The notes under the pieces: generated by a model
Told to the model about the DNA's origin: nothing
What the model saw: only the letters and a program-made list of their open reading frames with translations
Databases searched by the model: none
Made by a program: the position numbers and the translations under genes
Part shown: positions 1,695 through 31,358 of the stretch, one piece after another
How positions within the stretch are numbered: the stretch's first letter is position 1
Layout of the letters: every line of letters begins with the position of its first letter
NCBI GenBank assembly: GCA_022784065.1
Contig: JALFUO010000086.1
Location: 1 to 41,704 of the forward strand
Origin: Bacteroidales bacterium
GTDB lineage: Bacteria; Bacteroidota; Bacteroidia; Bacteroidales; Bacteroidaceae
Length of the DNA stretch: 41,704 bases
Reading direction: 5' to 3'

Positions 1695-4600
1695 ATGCTT
1701 ATGAAAAAGTATTTCTCTTTGATGGCCCTGCTCCTGTGCTTTGCAGGACAGGCGTGGGCCGACAAGATTGAGGCGTCCACGACCGACCCGTCAAACGGTA
1801 AGCCGGAACACCTCTACACAATGGTGAGCGGCAACGGCTATTACGCCAATGGCTACACCGCCCCCACGCAGACAGACGAGAACAAAGCGCTGTTTGCCTT
1901 CTATTCCGCAGGCGTCTCTGATGCCTACTACATTTACTGCTACACTTCCAAGAAGTGGCTGAGCTACACCAAAGCTTCAAGCTACAGCAACAAAACCGGC
2001 TTTATCTCGCTGTCCGACAGCAAGACCACCGGTACTTACTTCCAGTGTCGCAACTATTCGGGCGACAACTACGACATCGCTCCGTACAACACTACCAGTG
2101 TTGCCACCAAGTACCTCAACTGGTACACGGGCATAGGCTCAAACAACCCCTTAGACGGCACCGTTACGCTTGGCCTTTGGCAGGATAACGGTTCAAACGA
2201 CGCCGGCAGTCGCTGGCAGTTTGCCGAAGCCATTATCCAGACCCACACCTACACCATCGTGGCTCCCGCCGGCACAACCGTTACCGTTAACGGCACGGCT
2301 TACACCAACGGCCAGACCGTGACCAGCGAAGGCCGCCTGCAAAAGAGCGCGGTGAGCGCAACGGCACAAGAGGGCAAGTTTGTCATTATCTCCGTGAACG
2401 ACGTGACGAAGACCATCACCGTGGCCTACGCCACCATTCCCGAGCAGCCCGCCACCACGGCCTACACCAACGCCGTGCTCTATCCCGCGCAGCAGGAAGC
2501 CGTGGGCGAAGCCAAAGTGGCAACGACCGCCGACACCTACACGCTCTACAACAACGTGCTGGCTGCCTCGTTCGTAAAGGCTAACAACTCGCTCTACTTC
2601 GCCGGCTCCAACGCTATGAACCTCCTCCCCGGCACGGAAATCTTTACCGTGGCCTTCGGTTCGGGCGACAACGTACCCGCTTCTGCCATGACGCTCAACA
2701 GCGTAGAAATGCAAACCCTCACGGGCGAAAGCACGGCCGTGGGCGGTGCAGAGCACTACAACGGCCACGCACTCGTTGCCAACTACACATATACTTATAA
2801 GGGCGCAACGGTGAACATCGTGTGGAAAGCCGTGCTTCGCGACGGCAGCCATTACCTCCGCACCGAAATGGAGCTCACGGGCGAGAACGACGTGGATATG
2901 TACAACGTCATTCCCCTGCTCTACAATGTGGACACGAATGCCGCAGGCTCTACGCCCGCCACTGTGGGCAACACACGCGGCGCGGTGCTGATGAGCAACA
3001 AGATCTTCGCCGGCCTTGAAAGCCCCGTGGCTTATAACACCGTGGGCGAGGCCGCAGGCACGGAAGACAACTACACGCTCACCACGACGCTCGATCCCAT
3101 TTCGCTCACGGCTTCTTCTTGGAGCACGGTGGCAAGCGCCAGCCTGCCCAACCGCGTTATCGAGGCCACGGGCGCAAACTATCCCAACGTGCTCGCTTAT
3201 GTCAAGGACGGCGTGACGCTCGAAGCTAATCAGAAGGTAGAAATCACCGTGGCTTACACCAGCGGCAACCACCGCCTCAATTTCGGCGGCGCAGACCTCC
3301 TCGACGCTTCCAACGACGTGGCCGCCAGCGATTACCACTCTGGTTATTCTGGCAATGAGCACAGCAACAACACCTTCACCTTCTCTGCTCCCTACGCCGG
3401 CACTTTCAAGCTCCGCGTATTCGTTGAGAAAGCAAGCGAAGAGGTAGATGCCAGCTCTACGATGACCGTGAAGATTTACACGCCGAAGGGAGGCGCAACC
3501 ATCACCACTGACGTAGTGGGCATCCAAGGCCTTTGGAGCCGCAACACGACGCTCGCCGCCGGCGAAACCTGGAAGATTAGCGGCGTTGTGGGCCTGATTG
3601 CCCAGGACGGCTCGCAGGACAACAGCAATATCCACAAGACGCAGAAGCGCCGCTCGTTCCTCGCCTACTCCGAACGCGAACGCGCAGTGCCCTGGCGTGC
3701 TTATCCCTGCTACATCTCTTGGTATGAACTGAACATCGACCGCAACAACGCTGCCAATCCTACCAACAACATGAACGCCAATCAGGTGCTCGACGTGCTC
3801 AACCACTGGAAGAGCGACTTCTACGATGTTTACGGCGTAGGTCCTAAGAGTTTCGTCATCGACGACGGCTGGGACAACTACGGCACGTGGACCTTCCACG
3901 CAGGCTTCCCCAACGAAATGCGCGACATGGCCGCTAAGGCAGCCGAGATGGGCGCAGGCGTTGGCGCATGGCTCGGCCCGGTGGGCGGTTACGGCACCAG
4001 CGGTAACTACCGCCGCAAGTATTGGACCGACAAGGGGCAGTCTATGGTGCTTTCTAACCCCAACTACTACGCAACGTTTAAGGCAGCCGCCGAAAATCTC
4101 ACGAAGAACCAGGGCGACTTCAACTTCTTCAAGTTCGACGGTATCTCCGCACAGTTCTCTGCCGTTGGTCCCGATACAGGCGACACGGGCAATGAGAACG
4201 CCGAAGGCATTATCCGCCTCGAACGCTACGTACGTGAAGAACTCAAGCGCGACATCTTCTTCAACACCACTGTCGGCACATGGGCAAGCCCCTTCTGGTA
4301 CCACTACACCGACGCTACGTGGCGTCAGGAAGGCGACTACGGCACGATTGGCAACAACAGCATCGACCGCGAAAACTGGATTACCTACCGCGACCGCCTC
4401 GTTTACCAGAACTACGTAACGAACTCTCCCATCTGCCCCATCAACACGCTGATGACCCACGGCTTCATTCTCTCTACCCACGGACAGGTGAGCAAGAACA
4501 TGGATTACGAGCCCGCACGCCGCGAACTGCGCTGCGCTTTCGTATGCGGCTCTGGCATGGTGGAACTCTACAACGACTATGAACGCATGAACAGCATCAA

Positions 4601-6071
4601 CGGCGGCGCACTCTGGGGCGACCTCGCCGAGTGCATCAGGTGGCAGAAGAAGAATGCCGACGTATTGCCCGACGCTCACTGGGTGGGCGGCAATCCCTGG
4701 GACGGTTCAAAAGCCAACGTTTACGGCTGGGCTTCTTGGAACGGCACGAAGGCTACCCTCGCCCTGCGCAACGGCGGCAACTCTTCGCAGACCTACACCT
4801 TCACGCTCCGCGACGCGCTCAACATTCCTGCCAACGTGAACGGCGCGATGTACTTCGTTAAGTCGTTCAGCGTACAGGATGCGCTTCAAGGCTTTGCAGA
4901 AGGCCAGGCCATCAGCTACGACACGCAGCTTACCGTGACGCTCCCCGGCAGCAGCCTGTTCGTCTTCGACGGCTCGCTCTCCGAAGTAGAAGCTCCGTCC
5001 AACACGTTCACCTTCACGGCTTCCGACCCTGAAAACGGCAGCCGCCTCGAAAGCCTCAGCACCATTACGCTGACTTTCGCCGATGAAGTGGGCCTCGTAA
5101 GCGAAACGGCCCTCGAAGTGAAAGACGCTTCCAACACGACCGTTACCACCGCCGCCTTCGCCAAGAGCGAGACCGACGGCACGAAGGTAATCGTTACGCT
5201 CGCAGACGAAATCGCCACCAACGGCACGTACCGCATCGCAGTGCCCGAGAAGTTCATCTTCGACAGCAACGTTGATACCTCAGCCGAGGACAAGGGCGTA
5301 AGCAACGGCGCAACCTACAACCCCGCGTTCAACCTCTCTTACACGATTAAGGTTGCCGAGGACTATCCCGTCAACTTCGACAAGGACGCTTCTGCCACCC
5401 GCACCGACCGCTACATCAACAGCATCACTCTGACCGAAAGCGGACAGACGGCGCAAAGCGTCACCCTTTCCAGCCGCAAGCCTTACATCGACCTCACGGA
5501 AGACGAGAATGCGCAATTCACCTGCACCGCAGGCAGCACGCTGACAACAACGTTTGACTGGGAAGGTTCTTGGATGCACGGCTACGTGTTCATCGATATC
5601 GACAACGACAAGCACTTCTCTTTCACCGAAGGCAGCACCACGCAGACCGACACGGAAGTTTATGCTTTCTCGTTCTACTCGGGCAATTTCAACGACGACA
5701 GCAGCGGCTATAACTCGGCAGGCACCCGTCTTACGGGCAATGCCCGCGCTGTGGTTAATCCTCCCTCGTTCACCGCTCCCAGCACGAACGGCACGTACCG
5801 CATTCGCTTCAAAATCGACTGGAACAGCGTAGACCCGGGCGGTCAGCTCGCAGCAGACGGCACGGCTACCGGTGCTAACGGTATCATCGCCAACGGCGGA
5901 CAGATTGTCGACGCCCTGCTCACCATCACGGGCGGCATTGACACGGGCATCGACAACCTCAACACCGAAAGCAAGACGAAGGACGTGATGTATGACCTCA
6001 GCGGCCGCCGCCTCAACGCAGCACCCGCACAGGGCGTATTTATCCTCAACGGCAAAAAGGTTATCAAATAA
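1695..6071 (+). CDS. Large secreted clan GH-D glycosidase (alpha-galactosidase-like) with GEVED and T9SS-like tail
   Basis: This 1458-residue protein starts with a signal peptide (residues about 1-22; ATG at 1695 or, equally possible, 1701). A lectin-like N-terminal part and a beta-rich supersandwich-like region (about 260-640) precede a TIM-barrel region (about 680-1010). The barrel has the DDGW motif (Asp723-Asp724) and the FFKFDG motif with candidate nucleophile Asp815. A DATWRQEGDYG stretch (873-881) probably holds the acid/base. These are hallmarks of GH27/GH36/GH31-type clan D enzymes acting on alpha-linked galactose or related sugars. An Ig-like domain (about 1101-1210), a GEVED-like domain (about 1290-1400) and a C-terminal YDLSGRRL...GVFILNGKK tail follow; the tail resembles T9SS sorting signals. 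It is expected at the cell surface or outside. The precise family and substrate cannot be set by eye. A strong terminator follows at 6101. Confidence 0.8.
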   Translation: MLMKKYFSLMALLLCFAGQAWADKIEASTTDPSNGKPEHLYTMVSGNGYYANGYTAPTQTDENKALFAFYSAGVSDAYYIYCYTSKKWLSYTKASSYSNKTGFISLSDSKTTGTYFQCRNYSGDNYDIAPYNTTSVATKYLNWYTGIGSNNPLDGTVTLGLWQDNGSNDAGSRWQFAEAIIQTHTYTIVAPAGTTVTVNGTAYTNGQTVTSEGRLQKSAVSATAQEGKFVIISVNDVTKTITVAYATIPEQPATTAYTNAVLYPAQQEAVGEAKVATTADTYTLYNNVLAASFVKANNSLYFAGSNAMNLLPGTEIFTVAFGSGDNVPASAMTLNSVEMQTLTGESTAVGGAEHYNGHALVANYTYTYKGATVNIVWKAVLRDGSHYLRTEMELTGENDVDMYNVIPLLYNVDTNAAGSTPATVGNTRGAVLMSNKIFAGLESPVAYNTVGEAAGTEDNYTLTTTLDPISLTASSWSTVASASLPNRVIEATGANYPNVLAYVKDGVTLEANQKVEITVAYTSGNHRLNFGGADLLDASNDVAASDYHSGYSGNEHSNNTFTFSAPYAGTFKLRVFVEKASEEVDASSTMTVKIYTPKGGATITTDVVGIQGLWSRNTTLAAGETWKISGVVGLIAQDGSQDNSNIHKTQKRRSFLAYSERERAVPWRAYPCYISWYELNIDRNNAANPTNNMNANQVLDVLNHWKSDFYDVYGVGPKSFVIDDGWDNYGTWTFHAGFPNEMRDMAAKAAEMGAGVGAWLGPVGGYGTSGNYRRKYWTDKGQSMVLSNPNYYATFKAAAENLTKNQGDFNFFKFDGISAQFSAVGPDTGDTGNENAEGIIRLERYVREELKRDIFFNTTVGTWASPFWYHYTDATWRQEGDYGTIGNNSIDRENWITYRDRLVYQNYVTNSPICPINTLMTHGFILSTHGQVSKNMDYEPARRELRCAFVCGSGMVELYNDYERMNSINGGALWGDLAECIRWQKKNADVLPDAHWVGGNPWDGSKANVYGWASWNGTKATLALRNGGNSSQTYTFTLRDALNIPANVNGAMYFVKSFSVQDALQGFAEGQAISYDTQLTVTLPGSSLFVFDGSLSEVEAPSNTFTFTASDPENGSRLESLSTITLTFADEVGLVSETALEVKDASNTTVTTAAFAKSETDGTKVIVTLADEIATNGTYRIAVPEKFIFDSNVDTSAEDKGVSNGATYNPAFNLSYTIKVAEDYPVNFDKDASATRTDRYINSITLTESGQTAQSVTLSSRKPYIDLTEDENAQFTCTAGSTLTTTFDWEGSWMHGYVFIDIDNDKHFSFTEGSTTQTDTEVYAFSFYSGNFNDDSSGYNSAGTRLTGNARAVVNPPSFTAPSTNGTYRIRFKIDWNSVDPGGQLAADGTATGANGIIANGGQIVDALLTITGGIDTGIDNLNTESKTKDVMYDLSGRRLNAAPAQGVFILNGKKVIK

Positions 6072-6100
6072 AGTATAACCCCAACAACCCCCTAAACGCA

Positions 6101-6138
6101 ACTCCGCACGCAGAACGCTCTGCGTGCGGAGTTTTTTT
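6101..6138 (+). terminator. Rho-independent terminator after the GH-D glycosidase
   Basis: A perfect 14-bp stem (ACTCCGCACGCAGA with its complement, 6101-6132), a 4-base loop, and a run of seven T follow the stop codon by 29 bases. Confidence 0.92.
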
Positions 6139-6330
6139 GTGCGCTGGCAAGGAGGGGGGCTTATGTAAATGCCGTGCAAACGAGCGCTGAGCCAAGTGCG
6201 TTCGGGCAGTGCCGAGTGAAGCCTACTTTATGAAAAACGCCTCGGAAATGAGGCGTGCATTGATTGATGCTATGCGGCGCTCACAACAACAACAGGGCTT
6301 ACAGCGTGTCGAACCTCTCCCATATAACGC
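6139..6330. other. Gene-free stretch with decayed repeat
   Basis: Between two stem-loops this stretch holds a degraded relative of repeat family C (GTGCAAACGAGCGCTGAGCC... GTGCCGAG, about 6172-6219) and a small hairpin GCCTCGGAAATGAGGC near 6239-6254. No convincing gene is visible. Confidence 0.4.
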
Positions 6331-6369
6331 AACGCCGCCCGCAGGACAATCATTCCTGCGGGCGGCGTT
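6331..6369. terminator. Strong stem-loop, probable terminator for the GH20 operon
   Basis: AACGCCGCCCGCAGG (6331-6345) pairs perfectly with 6355-6369 across a 9-base loop. It lies 22 bases past the stop of the minus-strand GH20 gene and converges with the glycosidase terminator. The T tract on the minus strand is poor, so efficiency is uncertain. Confidence 0.65.
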
Positions 6370-6391
6370 TATTTCAGAGATTTGCAAACGG

Positions 6392-8455
6392 CTACAAGTG
6401 GTTTTCCACTTTGAGGTTGGTCACCTTGCTCTTGAAGTTGCCTGCACGGCGCAAGGGGAAGACCAGCGTGCGCTGATAGTAAATCTTATCGGCGGGGTCG
6501 TAAACCTTAGGTTCGAAGAGGGCAGCCTCGCCGCGCTGATAGTGCGCACGGTTGCTCTCGCGCACCACGTAGAGCGTCTTAGGTCCGAGTTCTTCCTTCT
6601 GCTGCCCGTTTTCGAGCAGGCGCGTCATGCGGTTGTTGCCCTGTATGGTCAGCGTAACGGTGCGCCCTTCGGGAATGCGGTAGTTGAAGGTATTGAGATA
6701 ACCGTCGCGCATAAAGCCGAGTTTGCCCTGCTCGGGGTCGGCAAGATAGAAAGTGGCGTTGTCGGAGGAGAAGAGCACCGTGCCTTTTTCCTCTTTTTGG
6801 CCCTCAACCGTAAAGGTGACGGAATAGTCGTAGCCTATTTCCTCAAAGCCGGTTTCGCTGCCGGGCAGTACTTCTGCTTGCTCAAGCACGGTGGCAGGCT
6901 GCGTGCCGTAGCGTGCCAGTTCGTTCACGCCGGGAGCCTCGTGCAGCTGCCAGCGGTTTTTGTCGAAGTCGGCATAAGGCAGCGTGGTGAGTTTTCCCGT
7001 CCACGTCTTGGCGGCAATGGTCTGCAAGGCAGGATACACGCGGTGGTGAATGTCTTTCACGGAGATACCGTTGCCGGCGTGGTCGTTCCAAACGGCAAAC
7101 ATGCCGCCGAGGATAGCGGGGTCGTTTTCTTCAAACTTCTCGCCGCCGATAGTGGCCGGCGTCCAAGCATCGTAGAGCCACTGGCAGTTGAGATAGTCGT
7201 AATAGTAACCGGCGGCGGGCACGATGTAAGAGAAGCCGTCGCTGATGCTCACGAGTTTATATCCCTGCTCCTTCATGTCGCGCGGCTGTGCAAAGCCGTT
7301 GTACCAGCAGTCCATGATGACGTTTTCGGACTTAACAGGCGTGTTGCCGTTGGCGTGCGTGAGCGCACCCCAGAGGACGGCCTGCTTGCCATATTTCTCC
7401 ACATATTTAATATAGTGGTCGGTATATTCGCGGAACTTCTCAACGACTTCTTTCTTGGCGTTGGAATATTCGTCCGTGCCGATATGCACGCGCTTGCCGC
7501 GGAACACGGGCTCCTTGCCGCTGAGATATTCGTCGAAGAGCGCGTCCATAAACTTATAGGTCTCGGGATTGAAAAGGTCGAGGTGGTCTGCGCCATACTC
7601 CTTGCTGGCCAGTTCAGGCTTGTAGTGGGTGAAGGCGAGCGAGTGCGCCGGGCTATCTATTTCGGGAATGATTTCCACGCCCTGCTGCTCTGCCCACTTT
7701 TGCAGGTCGATAAATTCCTGCTTCGTGTAAGAGCCGTCCTTTGCCGTGAGGCCGGGATAAGTGTCGCACTGTAAGCGGAAAGCGGCCTGCGTCTTGCTCC
7801 AATCGTCACCAAAGAACTGCTTGAAGCCGTTGTCGTTGAGGTGAATTTGCAGCGTGTTCATCTTGTAATAGGCCATGATGCTCACGAGGTTGCGCAAGTA
7901 AGCCATGGGAATGTACTTGCGGCCGCAGTCAATCATGAAGCCACGCAGGGGATACTGCGGCACGTCGGTTGCCACGCCCTTGGGGAGGCTGGCTACGCCG
8001 TTTTTGTCGCAGATTTGCAGCACGGTGCGCGTAGCCCACTGCAAGCCCTGTATCGTCTGGGCGTGGAGACTGACGCCTTGGCCTACGGTCATGCGGTAGC
8101 CCTCTTTGCCGAGATTGCCGAGGGGCTTAAGCGTGAGGGTGATGTCGCCTGCTTTTGGCCTGCCCTTTGACACAGCCATCGGCTTGCCCGTCACTTGGCG
8201 GAATTGCTGGGCAAAAAGTTCTGCGAGGCTGTTGAGCGCGGCAGACTTGCCATTTACGATAACGCGCCCGGAGAGTTCGAGCGTGCCTTCCGCGCCTTGC
8301 CATTCTGTGATTTCGGGCACGGTGAAAGGTTTGGGATTAACGGTCTGCGCCTTTGCTGCCGGCGTGAGCAGGAGGGCGGCGATCAACAGGGCGAACAACC
8401 CCATCATGCGTTTGTTTTTCTTCATCATATCAAGATTAGATTTAAGGGTGTTCAT
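6392..8455 (-). CDS. Secreted GH20 beta-N-acetylhexosaminidase
   Basis: The product is about 687 residues and removes terminal beta-linked GlcNAc or GalNAc from glycans. A signal peptide (MMKKNKRMMGLFALLIAALL, ending near AKAQ) follows ATG 8455; starts at 8428 or 8425 are equally good, and the long upstream extension to 8572 is out of place because it covers the preceding gene. An N-terminal GH20b-like domain leads into a barrel with PEIDSPAHS and HIGTDEY, where Asp328-Glu329 is the catalytic pair that stabilises the oxazolinium intermediate and protonates the bond. HIGTDEY replaces the commoner HIGGDE. A beta-sandwich of about 130 residues ends the protein. It follows the small gene at 8461 by 5 bases, so they are cotranscribed. 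Likely periplasmic or surface-bound, used for mucin or N-glycan foraging. Confidence 0.93.
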   Translation of the reverse strand: MNTLKSNLDMMKKNKRMMGLFALLIAALLLTPAAKAQTVNPKPFTVPEITEWQGAEGTLELSGRVIVNGKSAALNSLAELFAQQFRQVTGKPMAVSKGRPKAGDITLTLKPLGNLGKEGYRMTVGQGVSLHAQTIQGLQWATRTVLQICDKNGVASLPKGVATDVPQYPLRGFMIDCGRKYIPMAYLRNLVSIMAYYKMNTLQIHLNDNGFKQFFGDDWSKTQAAFRLQCDTYPGLTAKDGSYTKQEFIDLQKWAEQQGVEIIPEIDSPAHSLAFTHYKPELASKEYGADHLDLFNPETYKFMDALFDEYLSGKEPVFRGKRVHIGTDEYSNAKKEVVEKFREYTDHYIKYVEKYGKQAVLWGALTHANGNTPVKSENVIMDCWYNGFAQPRDMKEQGYKLVSISDGFSYIVPAAGYYYDYLNCQWLYDAWTPATIGGEKFEENDPAILGGMFAVWNDHAGNGISVKDIHHRVYPALQTIAAKTWTGKLTTLPYADFDKNRWQLHEAPGVNELARYGTQPATVLEQAEVLPGSETGFEEIGYDYSVTFTVEGQKEEKGTVLFSSDNATFYLADPEQGKLGFMRDGYLNTFNYRIPEGRTVTLTIQGNNRMTRLLENGQQKEELGPKTLYVVRESNRAHYQRGEAALFEPKVYDPADKIYYQRTLVFPLRRAGNFKSKVTNLKVENHL

Positions 8456-8460
8456 ATCAA

Positions 8461-8790
8461 TCAAAAATTCTCTTCGTCGAAATCGAGCTGCGCCTCGACG
8501 AACGGGGTAAGTTCTGCCGTCGTGAAGTCGCCGATGCCCTCTTTCTTGGCCTTGGCAGCGAGGTATTCGCACACGGCATCGATGTTGATGTCGATAAAAC
8601 CGTTCTTATCGGGCTCGGCATCGAGCACGCCGCTCTCGGCATAATATTCCACTGCGAGGTCGAGGAAGTAGTAAATCACATCTTCGGGAAACTTCTCTTT
8701 GAGTTCTTCGGGCAAATGCTCCTGTATGTATGCCACGGCGCGCGCGTCTTCGGCGGCGTCTGCCAAGAGTTCTTCTTCTAAGGATGACAT
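8461..8790 (-). CDS. Small acidic conserved hypothetical protein
   Basis: The 109-residue product starts MSSLEEELLADAAED at 8790, the first ATG after a poorly coding upstream stretch that carries a family C repeat. It is strongly acidic and helical with no signal peptide or membrane segment, so it is cytoplasmic. A DKNGFIDINIDAV stretch looks superficially like an EF-hand loop, but a second loop is not evident. It lies 5 bases ahead of the GH20 gene and is probably cotranscribed. I do not recognise a characterised family; related small proteins are, to my knowledge, common in Bacteroidales. Confidence 0.75.
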   Translation of the reverse strand: MSSLEEELLADAAEDARAVAYIQEHLPEELKEKFPEDVIYYFLDLAVEYYAESGVLDAEPDKNGFIDINIDAVCEYLAAKAKKEGIGDFTTAELTPFVEAQLDFDEENF

Positions 8791-24662: not shown

Positions 24663-25006
24663 TTTAAGGTGGGTTCTATAAATTCCCACCGTAAAAAATT
24701 ACAATAATATTGGGTTGACGTTTTGTCATGTTTTCTTTTCGGTCTAACCGACGAACGAGCGAGCGGAGAGCCGAGCTTGCTCGAGCTATTCCGAGCGAGG
24801 AGGAGGAAGGCTCGCCAAATCGTAAGTCTCATCGGTCACGTAGCCCGCTACGCTCCCTCTTCAACCGACGACAAGCCGAGAGCAATATCAAGCTTGCCTT
24901 GAATATGGCCGAGGCGCGAAGGAGGAAGGCGAAAGCCAACTTACCATTCATCCTCGAAAATAAATCCAAAATCTGCCAAAGCGAATTAATAGAACCCACC
25001 TTTAAG
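24663..25006. mobile_element. Element G: 344-bp MITE-like element with 23-bp terminal inverted repeats
   Basis: The left end AAGGTGGGTTCTATAAATTC (to 24685) and right end GAATTAATAGAACCCACCTT (from 24983) are inverted copies, 21 of 23 matching over the full repeat. The interior has two related, palindrome-rich blocks: AGAGCCGAGCTTGCTCGAGC near 24767 and CAAGCCGAGAGCAATATCAA near 24881, both like family C and each followed by GAGGAGGAAGG or GAAGGAGGAAGG. No transposase is encoded. It fills the gap between the EamA gene start and the end of the gene at 24986, whose stop codon lies inside the right terminal repeat. Confidence 0.75.
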
Positions 25007-26185
25007 AAATTTTTCGGTCACATTGTGTAGCGGCACGTAGCAGAAGGCGCGTGCCTCGACAGTGCCGCCCTGCACCAGCGTGCTCTTGGGCACGCGGAAG
25101 GAGATGACATGGTTGTAGCCGTAGTCGCGTTGCAGGGCAAACACGGAGCAGAGCACGTCGTCGCCCTTGCGCTCTTTCACGCCAAAATAAAGCTCACAGC
25201 CTTCCTGCTGGAGGAAGGTGACCAGCGAGGCGAGCGGCAAAAGCAGCGAGTCGCAGGCGTAGCCGTATTTGTCTACTTTTAGCGCCACGTTCACGTGGTT
25301 CTTGCTGATGCCCGTAAGGAGCATGTTGCCCACCGATTGCACAAGTTTCATTGTATCGGCAATCAGCGCGTAAGTCTTTTTGCCGCCTGTCTTTTCAAGG
25401 CGCAGGTAGATGCTGTTGTGGATAGAGGGGCTGAGATATTCCTTGCCGCCCAGCACGCGATAGTTGGCTTGCTGTTTTGTAGAGTCGGTCGCGCTTTCGG
25501 GTTGCGGCAGGTCGAGCAGTTTGAGGTTGGGCGCGGTGCGCTTTATGTCGCGCACGAAGTTGCGTTCCAGCTCAATGGCATCGCAGCCCATAAGGAGTTG
25601 GCAGTCGCAGGCAAAGGCAAGTTGCAGGCTGCGCCCGCCGCGCTTAAAGTTGAAGTAATACTTTTTCAGTCCTTCCTTGCGCAGCGAAAAGTCGTTGATA
25701 TCGCCGGCGGCGGTGAGCGCGTTCCAGTCGCCCTTTGCCGTCATCTGGTCACGATAGATTTTGATGTCGCGCGTCTGCCCCGCGAGGTCGAGTTCGAGGG
25801 CGTAGCGTTCGAGGAAGTCGTAGACGGGCGAGGGGTTGAAGTCTCTCAACGCTTGCGGGAAGCACCAATAGCCGATGTGGGAGATGTCGCCCAGCGCGTT
25901 TTTCTTCACCGCAAGGCGGCGTCCGCGATAGACGAACGTCATGGAGTCCTTACCGCTTGCGGGTATAGCCGCGAGGCGTGCGCCGTTGAGGCGACACTGC
26001 GCCGCCATGGAGCGCAGGCGTTCGGTGGCAAAGGCCACGCTGCCGAGACTTGCGGGCGCAAAGCTATCGGCGGGCATGTCCTTTTCCGTTATCGCGCTCT
26101 TTGCCCCTGCCTGCGGCGAAAGCAGGAACAGGGCGCAAAGGGTGCAGAGCAGCGTTTTAACGCTGTACAAATTCTTGGTTGCCAT
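24986..26185 (-). CDS. Secreted protein of unknown function, last gene of the tubulin-like module
   Basis: The 399-residue product has a signal peptide (MATKNLYSVKTLLCTLCALF, ending near AGAKS). I do not recognise a family. It is rich in alternating strands, with RSLQLAFACDCQLLMGCDAIEL in the middle and a C-terminal strand-rich part. It lies in the periplasm or outer membrane. ATG 26185 overlaps the end of the zinc-ribbon/MORN gene by 29 bases, which argues for translational coupling and a shared task. The last five residues and the stop (KGGFY then TAA) are encoded by the right terminal repeat of element G, so its original C terminus may have been cut or changed. Confidence 0.72.
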   Translation of the reverse strand: MATKNLYSVKTLLCTLCALFLLSPQAGAKSAITEKDMPADSFAPASLGSVAFATERLRSMAAQCRLNGARLAAIPASGKDSMTFVYRGRRLAVKKNALGDISHIGYWCFPQALRDFNPSPVYDFLERYALELDLAGQTRDIKIYRDQMTAKGDWNALTAAGDINDFSLRKEGLKKYYFNFKRGGRSLQLAFACDCQLLMGCDAIELERNFVRDIKRTAPNLKLLDLPQPESATDSTKQQANYRVLGGKEYLSPSIHNSIYLRLEKTGGKKTYALIADTMKLVQSVGNMLLTGISKNHVNVALKVDKYGYACDSLLLPLASLVTFLQQEGCELYFGVKERKGDDVLCSVFALQRDYGYNHVISFRVPKSTLVQGGTVEARAFCYVPLHNVTEKFLKGGFY

Positions 26186-26798
26186 CTTTCCGGTGCAGTT
26201 GTCCCGACATGAGTTTGCCGTCGCGGAACGAGCCGGTCACGTAGTCGCCGCTTTCGGCATAGATGTCCTTAGAGGGCACAACCTGATGGCGGGTGGTGTA
26301 ATAAATGGTGCCCGTGCCGTGGGGCTGTCCGTTCTTCATCGCGCCCTCGTAGTTGCCATAGCCGAGGTTCTTGCTCGTAGAAGAAGCGGCGCTGTTGCCG
26401 CCGGCGGTGGCCTTAGGTCCATCTACCTTCGGTTCTTTTTCCTTAGACTTTCCTGTCTTAGGCTCTGGTGCTTGGGGCGGGGCCACTACGGAGTCTACCT
26501 TTGTGGAATCTACCTGCTCCGTCTGCACTTTTGCGGGCTCTGTCGCTGGTTCTTCCTTGTCGCCGCCGAAAGCGAGGATACCACCGGTGATGCCGCCGCC
26601 GATGATGAGCACGCCTGCGCCGAGCGTCAGTTCACGCTGGTGCTTTTTCCACCAAGGCTGCGTCTGTTGTTTCACTGGATAGAGCGGCTTGCCGCATTCC
26701 TGACACACGAAGTTGGATTTCTCAACTTCCTGAACTACTTTTTCGCTGGCCATGTCGCAACCTTCGTAGTTGTGGCATACGCCTTTTATCTTTGCCAT
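26157..26798 (-). CDS. Zinc-ribbon, single-pass membrane, MORN-type protein
   Basis: The 213-residue protein starts MAKIKGVCHNYEGC at 26798; a longer frame to 26870 reads through repeat E3. Cys8, Cys14, Cys32 and Cys35 (VCQECGKPLYPVK) form a zinc ribbon. One membrane helix (about 56-77, LTLGAGVLIIGGGITGG) follows. A linker rich in Pro, Lys and Glu (about 80-140) leads to a C-terminal MORN-like region, YGNYEGAMKNGQPHGTGTIYY and YVTGSFRDGKLMSGQLHRKDG. The zinc ribbon probably faces the cytoplasm and the MORN part the periplasm, by the positive residues before the helix. It lies between the tubulin-like gene and a secreted-protein gene, and may link the two compartments. No function is known. 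Confidence 0.82.
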   Translation of the reverse strand: MAKIKGVCHNYEGCDMASEKVVQEVEKSNFVCQECGKPLYPVKQQTQPWWKKHQRELTLGAGVLIIGGGITGGILAFGGDKEEPATEPAKVQTEQVDSTKVDSVVAPPQAPEPKTGKSKEKEPKVDGPKATAGGNSAASSTSKNLGYGNYEGAMKNGQPHGTGTIYYTTRHQVVPSKDIYAESGDYVTGSFRDGKLMSGQLHRKDGNQEFVQR

Positions 26799-26818
26799 AG
26801 TTGTAATGTTTTGTTTTT

Positions 26819-26922
26819 TAGTAAACGAGTTTACAAGTAAACGAGTAGACGAGACAGATTTGTCTTGCAAACTATATTTTACATAAATAACTTGTCTTGT
26901 TTACTCGTTTACTTGTTTACTA
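26819..26922. repeat. Repeat E3 inside the tubulin-like operon
   Basis: Left arm TAGTAAACGAGTTTACAAG and so on to ACGAGACA; right arm TGTCTTGTTTACTCGTTTAC to CTA. The core holds GATTTGTCTTGCAAAC. It lies 5 bases after the tubulin-like stop codon and 20 bases before the next start, so an operon transcript would carry it as a hairpin between the two genes. Confidence 0.8.
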
Positions 26923-26927
26923 CTGAT

Positions 26928-29900
26928 TTATAATTCTTTGAGTTCGTGGGTGAAGATGTCTTCTGCTAACTTCTTGTACTTCTGATATTCCGTGCTGAAC
27001 TCGTTGCCTTCACACACGGGCAGGTTGAGGATATGCCCGCGCACCACGTCCATGCCGATGCTGCGGCGCAGCTGTGCTTTTTGGTCGTTGGAGCGCACTT
27101 GCTGCGCAAAGGTCTTGTTGACGATGCGTTCCACCTGTTCGGCAAAGGCGGGCTGCTCTGCGAGGTTGCGCGCCATGTCGAGGTAGTCCTTACCTACGCG
27201 CTGCCAGTCATCGCCGAAGTCGCTTGGGAAGTTGATTGCGAGGAAGCGTTCGCCCGTCACGGGGTCGGACTTCTCAGCGAAAAGTTTCAAGCCCATGGCT
27301 ATCATGAGCGTGCGCTTGAGTTCTTCCATGCGCTCGATGATGCTCTTCTCAAAGAGCGTGGGCAGCGGCTTCTCGAAGGTCTCGGTGTGGAGCACCATGC
27401 GGTTGAGCTGTCCTTCCGTGGGGTCTGCAATCATGCGGTCGTAGCGCTGCTTGAGCACTCCCACGTTGGCCACGTAGCGCAAGGGGAAGCCCGAGGCGGC
27501 CGAAACGATGACTATTTCGTTCTTCTTGTCGCACACCGAAACGTCCTCCGTGGGGTTGAAGCCCGGTGCTACGAGCTTCATCATCTTGATGAGCTTGTCG
27601 CGGAAGCCGGTCTGGTCTTCGGTGAAGAGCGGCAGGCGCAACTGTATCATCTTCATCACGTTGCCGCCGGCGTTGGCGAGCTGCTTGCTCTGCTCCTCGG
27701 AGTTGAACTGCAGGTAGCTCTGCGCCGACTGCACCCAGGAGCGGCAGAGCTGCTCGAGGCGTTCTTCAGAGTTGTACTCCTGCTTGAGCTTTTCGAGAAT
27801 GTTCACGCCCACCATCTTGCTGAGCGGGTCGTTCTTGGCGGCGTTCTCCATGGCGTCGTTGGCGTTCTTGCTGCAGACTTCATAGATCACGTCGGTCGTT
27901 GCGCTGAGGTCGGTCATTTGCAGCATGTTCACAAACGACTTTTCGCCCTCTTCGCCGAGGTTCTGCACGAGGCGGTCGCGGATAGCGCGGGCGTTACCCA
28001 CCTGGCTGTCCTGATTGGCGATGCACTGCTTCACGAAGTCGTGCACACGCTCGGGGTCGTACTTGCGGTCGTTCTGCTGCTGGTCGGCGCCAGTCTGCTC
28101 GTTGCACTTGCTGTCGGCCTGCAATGCCACTTCCTTGAGGATTTGGCCCAGCAATTCCTTATAGGCAAGGATACCTTCAAGCATACGCGAGAGTTCGTTG
28201 ATGACTTCCTGCATCAGAGCGTGCGCAAAGGCATAGGCCGTGACGCGCGTGGCGGCGGTGTAGTAGTTGCAAAGCGCGGTCTTGTACTGTCCCATCACTT
28301 TCTTCGAGGCGCCCGTTATCGTGTCGCGCAGCCAGCCGATGTGGTCCCATTCATCGTTGATGGTCTTAATCTTGGCGGTCTGCTCCTTCATCTCGTTCTC
28401 CTGCACTTCGGTCTGCTCCTTGAACGAGGAGAGGCGGCTGGCGCAGTCGTCGATGAGGATGCGGGTGTACTTTTCGATTTCGAGCAGGCTCTTTTCGCCG
28501 CTGTGCCACTGCTCGAAAAGCTGCTTCTCGATGTGGCGGCGTATGTGCTTGGCATAGCCGAGGCGCTCGCCCATCTGGATTTCAAAGAACTTCTTCACAC
28601 CATGCGTGCGGTACTGGTTCTCATAGTAGTCCTTCACAAGGTCGGTGAAGGCGGCAAACCAGCTCTTCTTGTCCTCGCCGTTCATCACCTCGTCGGCGAA
28701 GGCCTGCGTGCGCTGCTCCCAGGTGATGTCGATGCCCTGCCAACGCTTCGAGGCGGGCGATTCGATGATGGCCTTGCCCAGCGTGAGGTATTCGTTGGAG
28801 AGCATCAGCTTGCCGCGGTTGTTGGTGTTCTTGATTTCGTCCTTGTAGCCCGTGCCGATTTCCTCGATGGAGCGTTCGCCGTAGCCGATGCCGTCCTGCC
28901 AGAAATTGAAGGTGAGCTGGCGTGCAGCGGAGCGTGCGTAGTTGTAGGTCACGCACTCTTCGATTTCTGCCTCCGGGTATTCGATGTGACGTATGCCGAA
29001 GGTCATGAACTTGCGGCTGCGCGTGGCGGCTGCACCCGTGCTGTCGTATTCAGGGCCTGCACCGTCGTTTTCGCAACCGTCGAGGCGTGCCATCTTGCCC
29101 GTGCCGGCCGAGAGCACCGTCTTTTGGAAAATGAAGTCGGCCACCGAGGCGGGCAGTGCCTTGGCGAGGTTGAGCGTCTTGCCTGCCTCGTTCACGTTGC
29201 TGTAAAGGTAGGCGGTGTCGAACGGCTCGATGCCTTCGCAGAGGCGGCGCACCTGGCCCGTGAAGTTGTCCATCGTGCCCGTCACGTCGTAGGGGTGGTA
29301 GGCGCCCACGCTCATGGCGTTAAGCTCTGAAAGGGCGGCATAGCCGTTGGCCTGGTAGAAGCCTGAGTCGTGGCTGGCATTTGCCACGTTGATTTCGGGC
29401 ACGTAGAGGTAGAGATATATCTTATATTGCGTGCCGCCCGGCTGCGGACGGTATTCCTGACGGATTTGCGCGATGGCGTCCACCACGGAGCCGGAGCCCG
29501 TGCCGCCTGCAAGGCCGGCGCAGATGTGGAAGGTGACTTTCTGCTCATTCGTCTCGTTTTGCATGCCTTGCACTGTCTGCTTGAGACGCGACATGAAGTC
29601 GCTGCCGTCGCGGCTGGCGAGGTTGTTGGCAAAGAGCGTGCGGCCGAGGCGGCGGCGCTGACCGCCGATGCCTGCGGTAACGAGCGGGCCGAGCTTGCTC
29701 GTCATCAGGTCGATATCGCCTGAATTGAGGAAGCACTTGATGCCGGGATAGAGCGAAAGGTTCTGGAACATGTTCATGCCGAGCCCGTGGATCGACACTT
29801 TTTGCGCCTCTTTCAGATGCACGGACTTGCCCATCACCTTCCAGCCCTCGCGCGAATTGAGGTCGTCTTCGCTGGAAGCTACATAGAGATAGTTGATGCA

Positions 29901-30011
29901 AGTGCCGTTGGTGGGTTCGTTGGAACGGAATTCCTCATAAACTTTTTTGCGGAACTCGCGCAGCACTTTGCCGCCCGTACCGCCGAGACCGATGAGAAGA
30001 TGGTTTTCCAT
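26928..30011 (-). CDS. Tubulin/FtsZ-like GTPase-domain protein (Tubulin_2 type)
   Basis: The 1027-residue cytoplasmic protein opens MENHLLIGLGGTGGKVLREF, a nucleotide-binding loop as in FtsZ and tubulin. The tubulin signature motif AGGTGSGS lies at residues 168-175 (Gly169 to Gly174), preceded by FHICAGL and followed by VVDAIAQIR. About 300 N-terminal residues form the GTPase part, much like the uncharacterised Tubulin_2 (PF13809) family. The remaining 700 residues are mainly helical, with a coiled coil near EQTEVQENEMKEQTAKIKTI and a glutamine/asparagine-rich turn; they match nothing I know. It is far longer than FtsZ (about 400), so it is not the cell-division protein. It sits between a membrane protein gene and the zinc-ribbon/MORN gene. 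Polymerisation and GTP hydrolysis are inferred only. Confidence 0.88.
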   Translation of the reverse strand: MENHLLIGLGGTGGKVLREFRKKVYEEFRSNEPTNGTCINYLYVASSEDDLNSREGWKVMGKSVHLKEAQKVSIHGLGMNMFQNLSLYPGIKCFLNSGDIDLMTSKLGPLVTAGIGGQRRRLGRTLFANNLASRDGSDFMSRLKQTVQGMQNETNEQKVTFHICAGLAGGTGSGSVVDAIAQIRQEYRPQPGGTQYKIYLYLYVPEINVANASHDSGFYQANGYAALSELNAMSVGAYHPYDVTGTMDNFTGQVRRLCEGIEPFDTAYLYSNVNEAGKTLNLAKALPASVADFIFQKTVLSAGTGKMARLDGCENDGAGPEYDSTGAAATRSRKFMTFGIRHIEYPEAEIEECVTYNYARSAARQLTFNFWQDGIGYGERSIEEIGTGYKDEIKNTNNRGKLMLSNEYLTLGKAIIESPASKRWQGIDITWEQRTQAFADEVMNGEDKKSWFAAFTDLVKDYYENQYRTHGVKKFFEIQMGERLGYAKHIRRHIEKQLFEQWHSGEKSLLEIEKYTRILIDDCASRLSSFKEQTEVQENEMKEQTAKIKTINDEWDHIGWLRDTITGASKKVMGQYKTALCNYYTAATRVTAYAFAHALMQEVINELSRMLEGILAYKELLGQILKEVALQADSKCNEQTGADQQQNDRKYDPERVHDFVKQCIANQDSQVGNARAIRDRLVQNLGEEGEKSFVNMLQMTDLSATTDVIYEVCSKNANDAMENAAKNDPLSKMVGVNILEKLKQEYNSEERLEQLCRSWVQSAQSYLQFNSEEQSKQLANAGGNVMKMIQLRLPLFTEDQTGFRDKLIKMMKLVAPGFNPTEDVSVCDKKNEIVIVSAASGFPLRYVANVGVLKQRYDRMIADPTEGQLNRMVLHTETFEKPLPTLFEKSIIERMEELKRTLMIAMGLKLFAEKSDPVTGERFLAINFPSDFGDDWQRVGKDYLDMARNLAEQPAFAEQVERIVNKTFAQQVRSNDQKAQLRRSIGMDVVRGHILNLPVCEGNEFSTEYQKYKKLAEDIFTHELKEL

Positions 30012-30045
30012 AGCTTTATTTTGAAATAAGATTAATGATTATTCT

Positions 30046-30121
30046 GTGGTTGGGGCGATTTGAAAAACGCCCGGATAAATAGTTATCTCTTTGATTTATG
30101 TCCTGCTGTGCAAAACGCCCC
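30046..30121. repeat. Family F palindromes upstream of the tubulin-like gene
   Basis: GGGGCGATTTGAAAAACGCCC (30052-30072 region) and a half copy GCAAAACGCCCCTAC (about 30109-30122) lie in the 112-base gap between the membrane protein gene and the tubulin-like gene. Confidence 0.6.
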
Positions 30122-30123
30122 TA

Positions 30124-30711
30124 CTAAAAATCATCGCTGCTGCGCGTCCGCGCACTGCTGCCCGTGCGCCGCCGAGAGGCAATGGCGCGTTGCACGTCCA
30201 TGGTCTTGATGACCGCCAGCGCGCCGAGCACAAGGAACAGCAGGCACCAGCCCAAACGTTTCAGGATATAAATGTTTAGGAACTTGTCCAGCGTTTCATG
30301 CATAGAAGCGGCGATGTCGAGCGGCGTATGCCCTTCAAAATCTGCCCAGTCCACGTATTCCGCAATGACCGGAAACACGGCAGTGGCCTCTTTAAAAATC
30401 TCATCGGTCTGCTCCTGCGAGAACTCGTAATCGGGCATAAAAGAGGCCCTCAAGGCGACAATCTCATTGATGCGCGCCTCGATTTCATCGCCGAAACTCT
30501 TGCACGCAAAAGCCCCGCAAATAAGAATGGATTGATAAAGGAAAAAACAGAAGACCACAGCGCCTGCCACATAACTGAGCGGCGTAAACGTGCGGTTCTT
30601 ATACCAGCCCTGAATAGCCAAGAATAAGAGAATTACCCCTCCCAATGCGAACAAAAAGCCTAAAAATATGCTAAGCAGGGAGTTGGTGAAGATGTCGACT
30701 AAAAGTCCCAT
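30124..30711 (-). CDS. Small membrane protein, first gene of the tubulin-like module
   Basis: The 195-residue product (ATG 30711, MGLLVDIFTNSLLSIFLG; the frame to 30765 overlaps the promoter) has three hydrophobic helices at about 10-33, 46-68 and 148-168. Between the second and third is a soluble loop of about 80 residues, and the C-terminal tail is basic and serine-rich (RRRTGSSARTRSSDDF). No family is recognised. The gap of 112 bases to the tubulin-like gene and the same strand suggest cotranscription. A role as membrane anchor for the tubulin-like protein is a guess from context. Confidence 0.75.
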   Translation of the reverse strand: MGLLVDIFTNSLLSIFLGFLFALGGVILLFLAIQGWYKNRTFTPLSYVAGAVVFCFFLYQSILICGAFACKSFGDEIEARINEIVALRASFMPDYEFSQEQTDEIFKEATAVFPVIAEYVDWADFEGHTPLDIAASMHETLDKFLNIYILKRLGWCLLFLVLGALAVIKTMDVQRAIASRRRTGSSARTRSSDDF

Positions 30712-30760: not shown

Positions 30761-30921
30761 AACAATTAAAACTATATTTAATAAGAGATAAAGCAAAAAA
30801 AACGCCTGCCCCGACATTTTTCCTAAAATAAAGGATTTATCCGTTATCTTTCGCACGCCTGCCGCCGCTTTGTGCAAGGCTTCTCTCGCGCGCGTATATA
30901 TTAATATTGTATGGCTCGGAG

Positions 30922-31160
30922 CAAATTTTCAGTATCTGCCTCAAAGTTTTTACTATCTGCCTCAAAGTTTTTCCTTTCCCATAGGAAAGTTTTATTACAA
31001 ACTTTGTAACGCGCATTACAAAGTTTGTAACACATGTTAGAAAGTTTGTAACGCATATTACAAAGTTTGTAATAAAAATTATCTGCGCAGATAGCGAAAA
31101 CTTTCAAGGGGATAGTAAAAACTTTCAAGGAGATAGTGAAAACTTTCAAGGGGACAGAAA
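30922..31160. repeat. Array D2: 21-bp units with flanking 21-bp units
   Basis: The centre (30995-31078) is four 21-base units starting TTACAAA(C/G)TT or TTAGAAAGTT, ending TTTGTAATAAAAA. The left flank repeats CTCAAAGTTTTTACTATCTG twice, and the right flank repeats AAAACTTTCAAGG(G/A)GATAGT three times with the same 21-base period, in inverted sense. ATCTGCGCAGAT joins centre and right flank. Array D1 (11792-11875) has the same design in the opposite orientation. The minus strand can be read as 7-residue repeats (YKLCNAR; PLESFYY), but no start or stop context supports a gene. The rest of 30761-31358 shows no other feature. Confidence 0.8.
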
Positions 31161-31358
31161 AAAAGGTCAAGGAGGAAAGAAATATAGATACAGAGCGGCT
31201 TGAACCTTCGGGCGAGGCAAATGAGACCTACAGGCAAGGGGACAAAAAAAATGCGGAAATCCATATTTTTATATATGATAATTTGCTTGCAAAAAAGAAA
31301 AGGCTTAAATTTGGCGACGTGAAAAACATTTTTTTGTCAAACTAATACCAAAAACACC

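Follow-up and report, generated by a model that had tools for sequence, protein, structure and literature searches.

Tubulin_2 or FtsZl1 proteins form an already known family (PMC2875224; PMC9871819), with scattered bacterial and archaeal members that, in the portions of the literature covered here, are known from sequence only. Makarova and Koonin, whose 2010 alignment of FtsZl1 contains a Bacteroides caccae sequence, proposed a cytoskeletal or membrane-remodelling role and described as its usual, although not universal, genomic context a vWA protein, often with a P-loop GTPase or an OmpA protein (PMC2875224). Here we analyse a locus encoding such a protein in a Bacteroidales bacterium of the Bacteroidaceae (assembly GCA_022784065.1), within a stretch of 41,704 nucleotides, contig JALFUO010000086.1, positions 1-41,704 of the forward strand, which we call the window. 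The gene TUB (26928-30011, minus strand) encodes a Tubulin_2/FtsZl1-type GTPase-fold protein of 1027 aa which, like FtsZl1, has an N-terminal tubulin-like GTPase domain, a long helical middle, a length of about 1000 aa and membrane-associated partners. It is flanked, also on the minus strand, by TM (30124-30711), encoding a small membrane protein, and by ZR (26157-26798), whose product combines a zinc ribbon, a single transmembrane segment and a MORN-type tail; SEC (24986-26185), encoding a secreted protein, overlaps ZR. An initial annotation of this DNA had placed the four genes exactly so, down to the 29-base overlap of ZR and SEC, and had proposed an envelope-spanning cytoskeletal or positioning machine based on an "uncharacterised" Tubulin_2 protein, a family that had itself been described in 2010. 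What is new here is that the locus splits into two blocks at the transmembrane helix of ZR, that TIR domains or kinases can sit on the same MORN tail, and that the window's GTPase is unexpectedly divergent.

Results

A scan of genome contigs with an alignment returned 277 encoding loci, the best 80 of which, nearly all from Bacteroidota, were used. In most of these 80 the order is TM, TUB, ZR, SEC, S2, S3, S4, S5, all in one direction; what the initial annotation had taken for a four-gene unit is really the front half of a larger operon, with up to eight genes in relatives. Taking as denominators the loci with enough flank, and with family models trained on the same loci, we found TM just upstream of TUB in 62/73, ZR downstream in 71/71, SEC in 67/68, S2 in 64/67, S3 in 60/60, S4 in 54/56 and S5 in 32/55, the S4 counts being weak because this family is loosely defined (correlation of its divergence with that of other genes, 0.06-0.29). 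All eight genes were present in 30 of the 54 loci having enough sequence on both sides. The partners also co-occur in whole genomes: among 295 genomes of the order, SEC was found in 5/5 with full-length TUB versus 5/290 without (p 1.4e-8), or 3/3 versus 5/290 once the two genomes that supplied profile rows are removed (p 1.3e-5), and S3 was present in all five and in 29 others. With a profile of the MORN tail alone, six of 370 genomes of the class were matched, TUB adjoining in all six; two of them had given query rows, a third is the record of L089 and three are fully new. The 80 loci and the sampled genomes are partly the same: L036, L040 and L059 are contigs of genomes G304, G263 and G018. 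Scanning genome contigs with the window GTPase sequence alone gave no relative, and viral contigs scanned for the GTPase gave none either.

Pairwise identities were then correlated over all pairs of 50 loci, the other 30 of the 80 being left out for missing one of seven genes or for an odd GTPase length. First, the N- and C-terminal parts of TUB and the part of ZR before its transmembrane helix correlate at 0.87-0.98, with 0.87-0.92 for the zinc-ribbon part against the GTPase. Second, the ZR tail, SEC, S2 and S3 form another block (0.76-0.88), and correlations between the two blocks are 0.29-0.43. The membrane protein follows the first block (0.59-0.62) over the second (0.33-0.48) and S4 follows neither (0.06-0.29). 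Third, the two ends of the single ZR protein correlate at 0.31, compared with 0.62, 0.74 and 0.79 for 78-residue ends of SEC, S2 and S3, and bootstrapping over loci places the correlation of TUB with the ZR N-terminal part 0.49 to 0.68 above that with the ZR C-terminal part. TUB is at most 40% identical in 43 of 146 sampled pairs whose S3 is at least 48% identical. Three genomes outside the order (L205-L207) display this directly, with TUB 26-39% and the zinc ribbon 31-35% identical on one side and the MORN tail 82-91%, SEC 72-73% and S3 70-78% on the other. At the DNA level, identity between L206 and L207 jumps from 49 to 83% at the first codons of the ZR helix; in the other two pairs it goes from 45 to 72% and from 47 to 73%, with a dip in the linker and then a lasting rise. 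The reverse pattern is seen in the clade of L074 compared with L088, L072, L064 and L069, where TUB is 65-83% and SEC 35-46% identical. Because the more divergent block reverses between clades, a uniform rate difference cannot explain both patterns, and repeated exchange of the cytoplasmic block against a conserved outside block, with its border inside the ZR gene, fits best. The meeting of a cytoplasmic-side and an outside block at one helix also backs the envelope-spanning arrangement that had been suggested from the gene order.

The border lies at the ZR transmembrane segment defined by hydropathy (26559-26630, minus strand). ZR counts 213 aa from an internal ATG at 26798, more probably its start than the TTG that opens the mechanically called reading frame (26157-26870). 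Before the helix stand four zinc-ribbon cysteines (C32, C38, C56 and C59 in TTG numbering; 26694-26777, minus strand), invariant in 14/14 aligned sequences, the window's among them, and after it comes the MORN-type tail (26160-26393, minus strand). Exchange between a cytoplasmic and an outside block predicts that the ribbon is inside and the tail outside, presumably in the periplasm, in agreement with the charges around the helix (KKHQR before, DKEE after). As for the initial annotation of ZR as a zinc-ribbon, single-pass, MORN-type protein, the cysteines, the helix and the recovery of the tail in relatives bear it out, whereas the window's own MORN match stays just below the Pfam cut-off (21.1 vs 22.5 bits, E 2.7e-4). 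The small membrane protein (195 aa, with an Arg-rich C-terminal tail) starts at ATG 30711, a correction of the mechanical call at TTG 30765; a Kyte-Doolittle scan gives 3-4 overlapping hydrophobic stretches, which we read, as had been done before, as three helices. A named family for it was rejected, every Pfam match falling under its cut-off.

Three cassettes found through S3 carry another protein whose tail aligns with the MORN tail of ZR. In L158 a Ser/Thr kinase (Pkinase, 4.7e-28) precedes SEC, S2 and S3; in L159 a TIR domain (3.5e-14) precedes SEC and S3, its protein passing the MORN cut-off with 26.3 bits; and in L162 a TIR domain slightly under its cut-off (4.6e-6) precedes S3. In the S3 tree, L158 lies within a group of tubulin-type loci (support 95). 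TIR and kinase heads on the same outside cassette speak for signalling, which leaves the previously proposed cytoskeletal or positioning machine as one option only. Five genomes of the order sample have SEC but no TUB, and in three of these (L152, L153 and L155) no head was recognised. Next to headless SEC-S2-S3 cassettes stand a lipoprotein and an ATPase read by eye as that of an ATP-binding cassette transporter (L165 5493-6990, L169 12681-14339, L176 5511-7008, L177 12373-13867), the lipoprotein of L165 being LPP20-like below cut-off. Matches to the helical middle of the GTPase alone (model 397-621, E down to 2.5e-23) were found in three genomes of one genus (L154 8829-10916, L156 8888-10861, L161 9225-11354), in proteins of 657-709 aa of which the one scanned, that of L154, has no tubulin domain; these partial matches were left out of the GTPase counts.

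The window was compared with L074, L088, L072, L064 and L069 (in brackets, those loci against L074), and for most partners its similarity comes close to theirs. Its membrane protein is 30-40% identical (33-45%), SEC 30-38% (35-46%), S2 35-42% (41-50%) and S3 53-61% (62-76%), while ZR is lower, at 35-39% (51-65%). Its GTPase is 28-31% identical to these loci, which share 65-83% among themselves. Twenty-two loci share at least 50% S3 identity with the window, and their TUB is 27-31% identical to its own; when other loci are paired with one another, the 84 sampled pairs having S3 at 50-62% show TUB at 33-90% (median 62.5). The window GTPase is thus far more divergent than its partners predict. 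In quick trees made without bootstraps, it stands beside L108, far from the clade of the partners and on a branch of length 2.39, while the window's SEC and ZR group with L059, a locus of the same genus (support 90 and 93). The approximately unbiased (AU) test rejects joining the window GTPase to the partners' clade with L059 (p 5.6e-5, for a clade chosen once the tree had been viewed). In L108, the ZR match falls on an open reading frame of 536 aa that may be an unrelated MORN protein.

Replacement of the window GTPase in place is likely. Since both it and L108 are long branches, long-branch attraction of an accelerated copy is possible. In a rival account no exchange took place: the blocks differ in rate, the window GTPase is such a copy and the correlation of the blocks reflects shared constraint. 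That pairs of loci are not mutually independent would also favour such an account. It is difficult to reconcile with the switch of the more divergent block between clades, with the sharp DNA step between L206 and L207, and with the AU result for a GTPase whose SEC and ZR neighbours join L059, and we consider it very improbable. We therefore retain exchange of the cytoplasmic block.

The GTPase itself matches Pfam Tubulin_2 (PF13809) far beyond chance, with 180.9 bits (cut-off 27) and E 5.5e-53 over residues 5-363 (profile 1-355/356). Both motifs pointed out in the initial annotation are present: the T1-like loop GLGGTGGK (29967-29990, minus strand; residues 8-15), with G8, G10, G11, G13 and G14 invariant in 36/36 aligned sequences, and AGGTGSGS (29487-29510, minus strand; residues 168-175), an instance of the FtsZ/tubulin nucleotide signature GGTG(S/T)G (T4) with G169 to G174 invariant in 36/36. 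The model predicts a tubulin fold including the nucleotide-binding core. With this core predicted and the partners co-occurring, the initial annotation withstands both of the refuting tests that it had set. Helices dominate about residues 380-775, and we place a mostly helical long insertion at about 380-785 (27657-28874, minus strand), its limits being approximate. The remainder of the second, C-terminal tubulin domain would follow at about residues 786-890 (27342-27656, minus strand; limits likewise approximate), with strands at 786-793 and 832-842 and a helix at 798-814; residues 940-1026 are also helical, at low confidence. Structural alignments extend to residues 862-890 and align just 304-357 residues. 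The predicted structure thus has a GTPase domain followed by a second, C-terminal tubulin domain, as in the superfamily fold. At the sequence level, FtsZ_C (PF12327) was not among the Pfam families of the GTPase at E <= 1, a PDB search with its profile gave weak tubulin-beta matches only (best E 0.03), PADLOC-DB 2023 had no family at E <= 1 for any of the four window proteins, and an NCBIfam search of the window proteins gave nothing useful.

The T6-like SNxNE and T7-like EN...E residues are kept in relatives (for the T7-like stretch, by inspection, E314 and N315 in 36/36 and E321 in 35/36 aligned sequences). In the tubulin superfamily such residues are required for filaments, and the protein may hydrolyse GTP and polymerise. 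A membrane-remodelling or positioning cytoskeleton, in which the GTPase would polymerise under the membrane and mechanically organise an envelope structure, is suggested by these residues together with the two-domain fold predicted, and is in line with the 2010 proposal (PMC2875224). One clade of Tubulin_2 relatives, comprising L085, L098, L109 and 17 others, has proline-rich C-terminal tails that are absent from the window type, and the three members scanned (L085, L098 and L109) carry GYF_2, a proline-binding domain; there, GYF and tail could cross-link subunits. However, a purely mechanical filament fits poorly with a slot that also takes TIR and kinase heads; a cytoplasmic block that is swapped while the outside is kept speaks against it too, and the long insertion in the C-terminal domain could block longitudinal contacts. 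We regard this cytoskeleton as possible but rather unlikely.

On the outside, SEC encodes 399 aa, for which an NTF2-like fold is suggested at residues 277-387. S2 and S3 very probably work together, since they are a single fused protein in 15 of the 17 loci chosen for long S3 frames (L181-L197). The fused Bacteroidota proteins (within L182-L197) are secreted and count about 600 aa, with an LPP20-type S2 part and an S3 part, and S4-like genes often lie beside their genes. LPP20 (PF02169), a domain known from envelope-ring lipoproteins, matches the S2 part of the L195 fusion above cut-off (8.6e-8) and is also Pfam-confirmed in a lipoprotein adjoining the fusion in L196; Pfam did not recognise it in the scanned S2 proteins of tubulin operons, and searches of PDB sequences with profiles of S2, S3 and SEC yielded no convincing match. 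An assembly or export platform, in which the outside cassette would form a ring or a set of chaperones associated with the outer membrane, with the GTPase driving assembly or cargo delivery, could account for the five secreted products, for S2 being LPP20-type through its fused relative, and for the fusions of S2 to S3 and the additional lipoproteins, LPP20 or LPP20-like, of several loci. Yet in Pfam scans of the operon genes no domain of a transporter, channel or secretin passed the cut-off and no cargo gene was recognised, and we hold such a platform to be improbable.

In the window genome the operon is split: the window is contig C96, and S2, S3, S4 and S5 are on contig C75, with S2 about 200 bases from the contig end and S3 grouping with those of tubulin operons (in starred sets of 7 and 15 rows, every row being of tubulin type). 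A permanently truncated operon was therefore dropped as an explanation, the missing genes being found on C75. At the end of SEC lies a dispersed repeat of 343 bases resembling a miniature inverted-repeat transposable element (24663-25005, minus strand), with terminal inverted repeats AGGTGGGTTCTAT...ATAGAACCCACCT. It begins inside the last SEC codons, which its arm supplies, and another copy stands before S2 on C75. A 326-base query taken from it has 102 matching pieces across the assembly of 2.2 Mb, many of them incomplete and many located where contigs end, with copies on C75, C39, C31 and many other contigs. Most simply, this would be a single operon carrying a mobile repeat between its fourth and fifth genes, at which the assembly was broken or mis-joined; the SEC-repeat-EamA junction of the window may instead be a true rearrangement, and target-site duplications at the repeat junction are ambiguous. 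Elsewhere in this genome, contig C55 encodes on its minus strand tandem FtsZ paralogues of 409 aa (606-1835) and 457 aa (1843-3216); in the genome search both exceed the cut-off of FtsZ_C (PF12327), and they lie directly after a gene read by eye as FtsA. With two FtsZ genes elsewhere, division probably does not need the tubulin-like GTPase, which backs the earlier view of a system unlike FtsZ division. Upstream of the operon, at 30900-31180, we saw by eye three near-copies of CTTGAAAGTTTT(C/T)(A/G)CTATC and several ACAAACTTTGTAA-like units, possibly regulatory. In another locus, L023, genes divergent to the tubulin operon (2981-8714, minus strand) match caspase (Peptidase_C14) and DUF4384 and, weakly, sigma-70 region 4.

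Discussion

The predicted tubulin fold, the conservation of the operon, the two co-diverging blocks meeting at the transmembrane helix and the alternative heads, all of them computed, led us to propose, for gut relatives of Bacteroides and Prevotella, an envelope-spanning transducer with exchangeable cytoplasmic heads instead of a cell-division ring, a model to which we give an even chance of being correct. In it, the machine has eight genes, of which the window carries the first four. The GTPase would sit on the cytoplasmic face, recruited by the three-helix membrane protein and the zinc ribbon of ZR; ZR would cross the inner membrane, and its MORN tail would engage the secreted proteins, of LPP20 type and NTF2-like, either in the periplasm or at the outer membrane. 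With GTP, the tubulin head would switch or assemble, and through ZR this assembly would be coupled to the state of the outside cassette, which the head would report or act on, most likely outside-in. We infer here the topology, GTP hydrolysis, polymerisation, the direction of signalling and the signal itself. The head would be an exchangeable module, in whose place other lineages put a TIR domain or a protein kinase.

Several observations weigh against this model. The GTPase was found in 2/25 genomes of the genus, by a single-sequence search of genomes many of which are incomplete, and therefore looks accessory there. Most outside cassettes of the phylum sample have no recognised head, and the class-wide MORN-tail search of 370 genomes returned tubulin-type loci only, without further TIR or kinase heads. 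A surveillance system is a related possibility that we see as rather unlikely: a shared outer cassette would carry interchangeable cytoplasmic effectors, among them the tubulin GTPase, TIR domains and kinases, and everything from the membrane protein to the ZR helix, the cytoplasmic half, would be shuffled between strains under intracellular selection, for example by phage-encoded inhibitors.

If the heads of the transducer are truly exchangeable, the tubulin GTPase would serve for signalling or as an effector within a receptor-like system, which is not a role usually given to the tubulin superfamily. The fixed set of partners, the sharp border at one transmembrane helix and the existence of cultured carriers make the family testable; these carriers are Bacteroides oleiciplenus, Phocaeicola faecicola, Xylanibacter brevis and Mangrovibacterium marinum, and X. 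muris, in which the GTPase frame is split.

The titles and abstract openings of the literature consulted hold no account of this operon or of block exchange. The words MORN, zinc and ribbon are absent from the main text of the 2010 study, the supplementary context families A1-B9 of which may list some of the partners (PMC2875224). Unlike the FtsZl1 operons described there, ours shows, in the genes scanned, no partner of the vWA, P-loop GTPase or OmpA kind: Pfam found none of these families in the four window genes, in S2-S5 on C75 or in the scanned downstream genes of L021, L023 and L027. Neighbours read by eye as vWA-like in L024, L025, L029 and L032 are left without assignment, Pfam finding no vWA there and a sub-threshold vWA match in L026 only. 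The T6-H7 region and the C-terminal tubulin domain, not identifiable in the 2010 study (PMC2875224), are seen in our GTPase model and alignment. Compared with CetZ, TubZ and tubulin, the GTPase is longer, at about 1000 aa, has a helical insertion in its second domain, shares 10-17% identity in structural alignments and belongs to an envelope operon. With the LPP20 family the likeness lies in the S2 part of the L195 fusion, whereas the scanned S2 proteins of tubulin operons are not recognised. Finally, the heads of L158, L159 and L162 are like TIR and Ser/Thr-kinase membrane receptors in joining a cytoplasmic domain, a single transmembrane segment (read from sequence) and an outside part; they are unlike them in that this outside part is a MORN-type tail in common with ZR, in a slot just before SEC or S3.

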